A stretch of 64,000 nucleotides of DNA, taken from NCBI GenBank assembly GCA_902524345.1, contig CABZCX010000001.1:129001-193000 (forward strand). Reading direction: 5' to 3'. Made by a program: the position numbers and the translations under genes. The notes beneath the pieces were generated by a model. It was not told the origin of the DNA and did not search any database. It saw only the letters and a program-made list of their open reading frames with translations. Origin of the DNA: an uncultured Pelagibacteraceae bacterium. Lineage in GTDB: Bacteria > Pseudomonadota > Alphaproteobacteria > Pelagibacterales > Pelagibacteraceae. This document shows, piece after piece, positions 3,017 through 6,669 of this stretch; positions within the stretch are counted from its first letter, which is position 1, and each line of letters opens with the position of its first letter.

Positions 3017-3256
3017 TTAATTTTTCGACTTACTGGCCCACCATTTGTCTAAAATAAAATACCAAACGGAGTTAGCGATTGGTTCAACAATCGCGTCGGT
3101 CAATGCAATCATGAAAGAAACGTCTGCAACGAGCATTAGAACAGTTATGGCTATTGCAAAGTGTCCGATTGTATAGATTATTGTCCTAAGGATAGAACCT
3201 TTATTATTTTGGTAAATATTACCTGCTGCTTTAAATATTCCGCTAGTTATTTCCAT
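3017..3256 (-). CDS. DUF2061 small membrane protein
   Basis: 79 residues with two hydrophobic helices (about residues 26-46 and 48-66) and the family pattern of RTIIYTIGHF early and EPIANSVWYFILDKWW at the end, as in DUF2061 proteins of marine bacteria. Function unknown. Its start overlaps the end of the upstream oxygenase gene by 14 bases, so the two are probably co-translated. It is the last gene of a leftward set katG - oxygenase - DUF2061. Confidence 0.8.
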   Translation of the reverse strand: MEITSGIFKAAGNIYQNNKGSILRTIIYTIGHFAIAITVLMLVADVSFMIALTDAIVEPIANSVWYFILDKWWASKSKN

Positions 3257-3854
3257 TTTGTTCCTTAAAAGGGCTTTCTAGAACGCAAGCTACTAAGTGA
3301 ATTCTGGCCTGTTCCCCACCATTAAAGAAATTATGATATTTTGTGTTGTTGGTTATCCAAACTTTACCATCAGCAGGGAGATGTTTTGCAACATTCTCAA
3401 TTACCATCGAACAACCCTTGTTAGTAATAATTGGTACGTGCAGCCTACACTCTGGGTCTTTATGCCAGCTGAGTGTTGACCTCGGCTCTTTTAACAAAAG
3501 TCTTACTCTTCCCAGTTTAAATCTTTTACTTAACGTGTCATAAACTTCTTTAAAATAAGTATTCTCAAATTCAGGGATTAATTGAGTATATTTAGACTCA
3601 TCTATATCAACGTCTCTAGAAACTTCTTTTCCAGTTTCATCTGCTATAGTCCAATATTTTCCTCGTATATTATTTCCTTCAATAGAGCTTTTGTCATTTG
3701 GAATTTGGTTTAATGATATTGCACCAAAGTGTGTTACTCCAGGAGAGTTAAATTTTTTAGCTTTTAAAATTTTACCTAAATCTTCTCTTAATCTTGTGAT
3801 ATCAAAATTAAGGTCTGGGACCTCATAAAAATCATCGAAAGTTACTGATGGCAT
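3243..3854 (-). CDS. Aspartyl/asparaginyl beta-hydroxylase-like Fe(II)/2-oxoglutarate oxygenase
   Basis: 203 residues with the cupin core of the Asp_Arg_Hydrox family. Metal-binding HxD is WHKDPECRLHVPI (H131, D133); the distal His is H174 in KYHNFFNGGEQARIHLV and the 2-oxoglutarate-binding Arg is R184, the same His-to-Arg spacing as in animal AspH. Such enzymes hydroxylate Asp/Asn side chains or small substrates using Fe(II), O2 and 2-oxoglutarate. The substrate here is unknown. It lies 21 bases downstream of katG on the same strand and overlaps the DUF2061 gene, so it is probably expressed with katG. Confidence 0.85.
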   Translation of the reverse strand: MPSVTFDDFYEVPDLNFDITRLREDLGKILKAKKFNSPGVTHFGAISLNQIPNDKSSIEGNNIRGKYWTIADETGKEVSRDVDIDESKYTQLIPEFENTYFKEVYDTLSKRFKLGRVRLLLKEPRSTLSWHKDPECRLHVPIITNKGCSMVIENVAKHLPADGKVWITNNTKYHNFFNGGEQARIHLVACVLESPFKEQNGNN

Positions 3855-3875: not shown

Positions 3876-6113
3876 TTAATTTAATTTCAAGTCAAATCTG
3901 TCAGAATTCATTACTTTAACCCACGCTGCGATAAAATCATTAATAAATTTATCCCCTGAATCTTCACATGCATAAACCTCTGCTAGGGCTCTTAATTGAG
4001 AATTTGAACCAAAAATCAAATCAACTCTAGTCGCTTTCCATTTAATTTTTTGTGTTTTTCTGTCTTTACCTACAAACGTTTGCTCTGACTCATCTTCTTC
4101 TTTCCAAGTGGTGTCCATATCTAGTAAGTTTATGAAATAATCATTTGTAAGAGTACCAGGTCTTTTTGTAAAAACACCATGTTCTGAATCATCATAATTA
4201 GTATCTAAAACTCTCATTCCACCTATTAGAGCTGTCATTTCAGGCGCTGTTAAACCCATCAACTGAGCCTTATCTAGTAATTTTTCTTCTGCAGAAATAT
4301 TTGAAGCTCCACCATTCAAGTAATTTCTAAAGCCATCTGCTTGGGGTTCTAGAAGGCCAAATGAATTAATATCAGTTTGGTCTTGTCTCGCATCTCCTCT
4401 TCCTGCTGAAAATGGAACTTTAACTTTATAACCAGCTTTTTTTGCGGCCATTTCGACTCCAACACCACCTGCTAGTACAATTAAGTCGGCCATTGAAACA
4501 CTTTTTTTATTACTGTCAAATTTACTTTTGATTTTACTCAAAGCTTTAATCACATTTGATAACTTCTTAGGATTATTAACTTTCCAATTTTTTTGGGGCT
4601 CTAGCATTATCCTTGCACCATTGGCACCACCTCTTTTGTCTGATCCTCTAAAAGTTGACGCTGACGCCCAAGCGGTTGATACTAAATCTGAAATCGATAT
4701 TTTTGATTTAGAAATTTTATTTTTCAAATCTTTAATATCATTTAACTTGAGTTTATATTTTGGTTTATCTATTGGGTCTTGCCAAATTAACTGTTCTTTT
4801 GGAACTTCACTACCAAGATAACAGACTCTAGGACCCATATCTCTGTGAGTTAATTTAAACCAAGCTCTTGCAAAAGCATCATGAAACTCTTTAGGATTTT
4901 GATGAAAATGTTTTGTAATAGGACCATAACTTGGATCAACTTTCATTGAGATATCAGTTGTTTGCATCATTGGTGGGTGTAGCACACCTTTCTTATGAGC
5001 ATCAGGAACCATTTTAATTTCTTGACCATTTTTCTTAGGCGTCCATTGGTGAGCACCAGCAGGGCTTTTTGTAAGCTCCCATTCATGTCCATATAAACAA
5101 TCTAAATAGCCCATGTCCCATCTAATAGGATTTTGAGTCCAGGCGCCCTCAATACCACTGCTTATTGTATCAACACCTTTTCCAGATTTGTAACCACTAT
5201 TCCATCCAGTAGACTGGTCTTGAAGTTTTGAAGCCTCAGGATCAGGACCCTTAAATGATTCAGATGCTGCACCATGCGATTTTCCAAACGTATGTCCTCC
5301 AGCAACTAATGCAGCTGTCTCATAATCATTCATAGCCATTCTGCCAAATGTCTCTCTAATATCATGTGCTGCAAGTTTTGGATCTGGATTAGCATCAGGA
5401 CCTTGGGGGTTAACATAAATTAAACCCATATGTGAAGCGCCTAATGGTTGCTCTAAATCTCTTTTTCCACTATATCTCTCAACACCTAACATTTCTTTTT
5501 CCGAGCCCCAATAGATATCATCTTCTGGCTCCCAAATGTCTATTCTACCAGCTCCAAAACCAAAAGTTTTGAAACCCATTGAGTCTAATGCAACATTACC
5601 AACAAGTATAAATAAATCAGCCCATGAAATTTTTCTTCCGTACTTCTTTTTGATCGGCCATAAAAGCAATCTAGCTTTATCCAAATTCACATTATCTGGC
5701 CAAGAATTAAGAGGAGCAAACCTCTGATTACCTGTTCCAGCTCCACCTCTACCATCACCTGTTCTGTAAGTTCCTGCAGCGTGCCAAGCAAGCCTAATAA
5801 AGAGTGGTCCATAATGACCGTAATCAGCTGGCCACCACTCTTGTGAGTCAGTCATTAATTTTTTTAAATCTTTTTTCAGTGCTTTATAATTAAGTTTTTT
5901 AAACTCTTTAGCGTAACTAAATTTTTTATCCATAGGGTTAGATAAATTTGAGTGCTGACTAAGAATTTTAAGATTTAAGCTATTGGGCCAAAAATCTCTC
6001 ACCGTTTGTCCCCGTCCTGCAGAAAACTTTGCAGGTGTTCCTGCACCCGTAAAAGGACATTTGCTCATTTGATTTGCTTTAAAAGATTTATCTTTAAAAT
6101 TTTCAGTACTCAT
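3876..6113 (-). CDS. katG: Catalase-peroxidase KatG
   Basis: Heme b enzyme that dismutates H2O2 and also acts as a peroxidase; cytoplasmic. 745 residues, full length with both the active N-terminal and the degenerate C-terminal peroxidase domain. Seen: distal [11 protein letters not shown] (about R107, W110, H111), the Tyr of [10 protein letters not shown] (about Y233) and the Met of FGRMAMND (about M259) that make the Met-Tyr-Trp adduct required for catalase activity, and the proximal heme-ligand His in [12 protein letters not shown] (about H274). Ribosome-binding AAAGGAA precedes the ATG. The promoter overlaps an Irr box (6149-6175). SAR11 isolates are generally described as lacking catalase, so this may be acquired. 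Confidence 0.97.
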
Positions 6114-6148
6114 TATTTTCCTTTAGATTAAATTCATTTTAATTGTAG

Positions 6149-6175
6149 TTTATAATGATTCTAAAAAGCTGTCAA
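6149..6175 (-). promoter_or_regulatory. katG promoter overlapped by an Irr box (iron control element)
   Basis: On the minus strand a perfect -35 TTGACA lies at 6175-6170 and a -10-like TATAAA at 6154-6149 (15-base spacer; TAAACT at 17 bases is the alternative). Between and over them lies TTTAGAATCATTATAAA (6165-6149), which matches the alphaproteobacterial Irr-binding consensus TTTAGAA-N3-TTCTAAA at 13 of 14 fixed positions. The box covers the spacer and -10, the layout expected for repression by occlusion. irr is encoded 35 bases upstream of the -35, on the same strand. Confidence 0.7.
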
Positions 6176-6209
6176 TTGGTTTAAAATGACGCTAAAGAAA
6201 AGCAAATAG

Positions 6210-6626: not shown

Positions 6627-6669
6627 ATTAAAATTATTCTAAACTGAAGTTAAATTTATATTATATAAT
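6627..6669 (+). promoter_or_regulatory. irr-fabA divergent control region with Irr-like box and fabA -10
   Basis: ATTAAAATTATTCTAAA (6627-6643) matches the Irr consensus TTTAGAA-N3-TTCTAAA at 12 of 14 fixed positions; the right half is exact. A perfect TATAAT at 6664-6669 is the likely -10 for rightward fabA transcription, 33 bases before the ATG; no clear -35 is seen, and the box ends where a -35 would begin. The box could therefore affect both irr and fabA. Binding is an inference. Confidence 0.5.

Follow-up and report, generated by a model that had tools for sequence, protein, structure and literature searches.

The core promoter of the catalase-peroxidase gene katG in this Pelagibacteraceae genome is covered by a 17-mer that is well supported, from sequence comparison, as an Irr-type operator, and peroxide defence in this SAR11-type bacterium appears to be under the dedicated control of Irr. 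The best explanation, to which we give a probability of about 0.77, is that an Irr dimer represses both katG and irr, with repression relieved when the His-cluster site of the protein is loaded or oxidised. The window (the whole stretch of 64,000 nt analysed here) corresponds to C1:129001-193000 of a 1.08 Mb genome with 29% GC and about 90% completeness. The features of the locus, in window positions, are as follows:

3243-3854, minus strand: Asp/Arg hydroxylase-like gene (Pfam PF05118), 21 bp downstream of katG
3876-6113, minus strand: katG, catalase-peroxidase of 745 aa (NCBIfam TIGR00198, 1113 bits, cut-off 770)
6149-6165, minus strand: putative operator, Irr box TTTAGAATCATTATAAA, within the katG core promoter; rank 1 in the genome, kept in 113/114 irr-adjacent SAR11 katG loci
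6149-6154, minus strand: predicted katG -10 hexamer TATAAA, in the 3' half of the box, spacer of 15 bp (from the sequence and spacing statistics)
6170-6175, minus strand: katG -35 hexamer TTGACA (from the sequence and the spacing in relatives)
6180-6196, minus strand: second Irr box, decayed, TTTAGCGTCATTTTAAA, 31 bp upstream of the first; 6.0 bits in its own genome
6210-6608, minus strand: irr, Fur-family iron response regulator of 132 aa (NCBIfam IrrA 125.8 bits, Irr 116.2 bits; tree; invariant ligands)
6627-6643, minus strand: Irr box in the promoter of irr itself, TTTAGAATAATTTTAAT, just downstream of the -10; 14.5 bits
6703-7203, plus strand: fabA (Pfam), divergent from irr; kept in relatives and a marker of the conserved locus

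Read on the minus strand from 6175 down to 6147, the katG promoter is TTGACA-GCTT-TTTAGAATCATTATAAA-CT; on the plus strand, 6149-6165 reads TTTATAATGATTCTAAA and 6170-6175 reads TGTCAA. The box lies 35 bp upstream of the katG start (6113). The sequence-only reading had described a perfect -35 followed by a 17-mer agreeing with the Irr consensus at 13 of 14 fixed bases, spread over the spacer and the -10, with irr just upstream on the same strand, and our own reading of the sequence and of the gene order agrees on both counts. The consensus used is the palindrome TTTAGAAnnnTTCTAAA, which we take to be that of the Irr box or iron control element (ICE). The sole mismatch, an A for a C, creates the TATAAA in the 3' half. 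An alternative -10 is TAAACT at 6147-6152, with a spacer of 17 bp. A TTGAC at 15-17 bp from TATAAA is found in 98 of 114 SAR11 katG loci, and the second box, decayed here, is intact in many relatives, 30-33 bp upstream of the first.

KatG is a full-length match above the curated TIGR00198 cut-off. The gap between irr and katG is 96 bp, with irr upstream, and the Irr box in the promoter of irr is kept in most relatives. The hydroxylase-like gene follows katG in other SAR11 genomes too, and both are probably co-transcribed, while fabA-fabB-fabI are transcribed in the opposite direction to irr-katG. In one genome (G266, L359, C1:102600-106800), katG is gone and both Irr boxes are left directly before the Asp/Arg hydroxylase gene.

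A matrix scan had been proposed as a check; instead of the published Irr motif, we used a symmetric matrix built de novo from 41 distinct sites, drawn only from relatives with KatG less than 88% identical to that of the window. Nearly all the genome was covered, around 7.6 kb being N; contig 16 is N throughout, as are about 5,000 bases of contig 1. The katG box is the top-scoring site in the whole genome, with 21.7 bits, and the runner-up (16.7 bits) is within a coding sequence. No site with such a score occurred in any of 5 simulated genomes, and 0.035 sites per genome would be expected at this level, 0.002 of them in intergenic DNA. Apart from the katG box, the one strong intergenic site with known conservation lies in the promoter of irr. 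Candidate sites with one mismatch exist elsewhere, mostly inside coding sequences. As the FUR proteins of this genome we found only Fur, Irr, and Zur, with no candidates for OxyR or PerR; its single LysR protein is not OxyR-like. In the SAR11-type lineage, Irr seems to be reduced to the local control of one peroxide-scavenger gene and of itself.

We compared the katG upstream regions of SAR11 genomes, some of the loci being from near-identical genomes. The motif, whose absence from orthologous katG genes had been named as one of two points that would refute Irr control, is present with at least 14/16 matches in 113 of the 114 loci with adjacent irr, and with at least 15/16 in 107 of them. Where irr is not adjacent, the box was found in 7 of 19 SAR11 katG loci, and in katG relatives outside SAR11 in none of 27; these counts do not represent independent events, the genomes being related. 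Among 63 non-redundant promoters of SAR11, the columns of the box are 92-100% conserved, except for the two central ones, and most flanking columns 40-70%, although these rows were picked for having the core box and the fair comparison is that of the unselected counts (113/114, 7/19, and 0/27). In another genome, four Irr-box-like palindromes are clustered in about 150 bp (L297, G026 C1:76167-76312), in a region that has no long open reading frames.

Nine genomes (L274-L282) have a clean deletion of irr, so that katG directly adjoins fabA, and whole-genome searches for Irr returned only Fur-level matches or none in them. A box with at least 15/16 matches is kept in 2 of the 9, against 107 of the 114 loci with irr, and is mostly lost or decayed in this group. 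The deletions suggest that irr was lost several times independently, since the nine genomes carry both KatG types and occupy several places in the KatG tree. We consider the decay of the box after irr deletion the best computational evidence for Irr as its probable ligand, tempered by the relatedness of the genomes, their incompleteness, and the two exceptions among the nine. Some irr-less genomes (L065, L231) keep a good box. In L015-L020, KatG is about 96% identical to that of the window and the adjoining irr only about 63%; katG apparently undergoes recombination between SAR11 lineages that does not involve irr.

The protein encoded by irr has a Fur-family fold (PF01475 match above cut-off). 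Its profile scores favour Irr (125.8 bits for IrrA and 116.2 for Irr) over PerR (59 bits at most, for PerRA), although they fall below the NCBIfam cut-offs of 150 and 170, and in a quick tree, built with no PerR outgroup, it groups with alphaproteobacterial Irr, apart from the Fur and Zur of the same genome. We classify it on these grounds as a divergent Irr, short of the named equivalog. The HHH cluster (H88-H89-H90) is invariant in 103 SAR11 orthologues, as are H33, D82, H88, H90, and D101, which align to the iron ligands of Bacillus subtilis PerR. The Cys-Pro heme regulatory motif is a feature of Bradyrhizobium-type Irr and is not universal in the Irr family; none of the 103 orthologues has it, and none has the structural zinc CxxC of typical PerR. 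The box itself was of no help in choosing the regulator: the PerR box, TTATAATnATTATAA, fits the site about equally (13/14), and the protein and its co-occurrence with the site were used instead.

From the site, its position and conservation, and its co-occurrence and co-loss with irr, we infer binding, repression, and a releasing signal as follows. An Irr dimer would bind across the spacer and the -10 of katG, and in many relatives also about 31 bp further upstream, at the second box. Since an operator placed over the spacer and the -10 would exclude RNA polymerase when bound, the most probable effect is repression of katG; Irr would also repress irr itself. Loading of the His-cluster site (H33, D82, H88, H90, and D101) with heme or iron, its oxidation by peroxide, or both, would lift the repression, and KatG would be made when iron or heme permits and peroxide requires it.

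The proposal in the sequence-only reading that heme or iron gates katG is upheld as far as the operator goes, which is of the Irr type, conserved, and co-varying with irr, but its heme logic is only partly supported. Release through heme-triggered degradation of Irr is not supported, as worded there, in proteins devoid of the Cys-Pro motif (0/103), though their His-cluster is intact. Heme economy was given as the reason for the control, and this is not supported because an Irr-box promoter also precedes the non-heme rubrerythrin of relatives. Under iron limitation, cells of Pelagibacter ubique have 1.57-fold more rubrerythrin transcript, with Irr protein unchanged (PMC2864753), a rise opposite to simple low-iron repression of the classical Irr kind. 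These data point, weakly, to sensing of the PerR kind, in which Irr may repress when carrying iron and be released by H2O2 or by the loss of iron.

Such sensing by the same protein on the same operator is a serious alternative, and we regard it as possible, though the less probable course. In that case Irr loaded with Fe (or Mn) would bind DNA, oxidation of a ligand histidine by H2O2 or loss of the iron would free the promoter, and heme would not be the physiological signal. It agrees with the five PerR ligands being invariant in a protein with no heme regulatory motif, with targets that are peroxide scavengers whether heme or non-heme, with the P. ubique response, and with Bradyrhizobium Irr, whose His-cluster binds heme, captures heme iron, and oxidises a ligand histidine like PerR (PMC4700492). 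However, Irr leads PerR by about 60 bits in the family scores and the zinc CxxC of typical PerR is missing, and the change in expression is small in iron-limited cells on which other factors act.

It is unlikely that Irr activates katG rather than repressing it. Most Irr-affected genes of Rhodobacter are higher in the wild type, from which its authors infer an activator function (PMC3413700), but an operator over the spacer and the -10 has the geometry of occlusion, and the persistence of katG after the loss of irr fits a lost repressor better than a lost activator on which the gene depended. We give very little credit to the idea that the conserved sequence is just an unusually strict core promoter with no operator, as the TATAAA in the 3' half and the adjacent -35 could suggest: the 5' half, TTTAGAA, is 97-100% conserved in the 63 non-redundant promoters and is not explained by a bare promoter, since the spacer there would be free to vary; there are second boxes upstream of the -35, and genomes that have katG but no irr show decay of the box. 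Just as improbable is Fur as the actual ligand, since, although Fur is present and all Fur-family boxes are AT-rich palindromes, the Fur-like site of the same genome, before an iron-binding-protein gene, differs (TTGATAATCATTATCAA), and irr-less genomes retain Fur yet tend to lose the katG box.

Repression of katG by Irr, as favoured here, would be one case of a conserved slot, fabA-irr-[X], in which X is either of two distant KatG lineages, well separated in the KatG tree and with the same box before each, or rubrerythrin. In SAR11 genomes without katG, rubrerythrin takes this position downstream of irr, and its promoter has one or two Irr boxes; the arrangement also occurs in other genera of Pelagibacteraceae. 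All 27 rubrerythrin loci examined have irr adjacent, most with a strong box and a few with a weaker or partial one. From 297 genomes of the family, 204 carry katG, 47 rubrerythrin, and none both; 214 of the 216 with Irr have one or the other, and G266, with its two boxes left before the hydroxylase gene, is an exception. In other Alphaproteobacteria, rubrerythrin adjoins irr in 37 of the 49 Irr loci sampled. Of those 37, 21 have a box scoring 12/14 or better, several of these being perfect palindromes and some lying in GC-rich DNA; the same palindrome precedes rubrerythrin in GC-rich Alphaproteobacteria whose Irr is above the curated cut-off. Because the Irr-rubrerythrin arrangement is so widespread in these bacteria, it is probably ancestral, and katG probably replaced rubrerythrin under the inherited Irr promoter.

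Two other arrangements were observed around these genes. In a MAG contig labelled Gammaproteobacteria (L184), a katG sister to the SAR11 type is preceded by a perfect TTTAGAATGATTCTAAA (2898-2914) and followed by an Irr-like gene in convergent orientation (5200-5598); it could be the result of a transfer of the whole katG-box-irr module between classes. In L242 (2490-3383), as in the class-level irr loci L360-L378, the gene downstream of rubrerythrin encodes an iron-sulfur CCG-domain protein and another small gene often comes next, an arrangement found in many Alphaproteobacteria. The rubrerythrin and CCG-domain genes may form a rubrerythrin reductase operon under Irr.

SAR11 bacteria are among the most abundant in the ocean and have very few regulators. 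We tentatively suggest, at somewhat less than even odds, that their Irr has shrunk from a global iron regulator to an autoregulated peroxide and iron switch of one swappable slot, in the place of both OxyR and PerR. An operator kept through the exchange of the enzyme and decaying with the loss of the regulator is a natural experiment on regulon shrinkage, and the katG operator offers a direct way to test whether Irr senses peroxide, as its PerR-like metal site gives reason to ask. To our knowledge it is new that Irr should target katG, that target genes are exchanged behind a single operator, and that the regulon has apparently shrunk; our literature search, which did not cover the main Irr regulon paper, found no earlier link between Irr and katG.

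The nearest known system is that of Rhodobacter sphaeroides, where the genes bound by Irr include ccpA, for cytochrome c peroxidase, and mbfA, and the loss of irr raises H2O2 resistance (PMC3413700). In both cases, a heme peroxidase gene has an Irr box in its promoter and Irr limits peroxide defence (predicted here), but in Rhodobacter katE is under OxyR and not bound by Irr (PMC3413700), whereas here the target is katG, irr is its direct neighbour, and the genome search yielded no OxyR candidate. Irr of Bradyrhizobium japonicum is likewise a Fur-family protein with the HHH cluster, acting on the same AT-rich palindrome (ICE), and H37, D85, H91, H93, and D104 are its equivalents of the PerR ligands. 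It differs in its large regulon and in the heme regulatory motif at its N-terminus; the SAR11 protein has essentially two sites and no such motif. The PerR-katA/katG regulons of Bacillus and others also tie a Fur-family repressor to a peroxidase gene through a similar box, but the protein described here belongs with Irr and is devoid of the zinc CxxC. Finally, the OxyR-katG pairs of other Proteobacteria share the principle of a dedicated regulator tied to katG, although OxyR comes from another regulator family and is mainly an activator.
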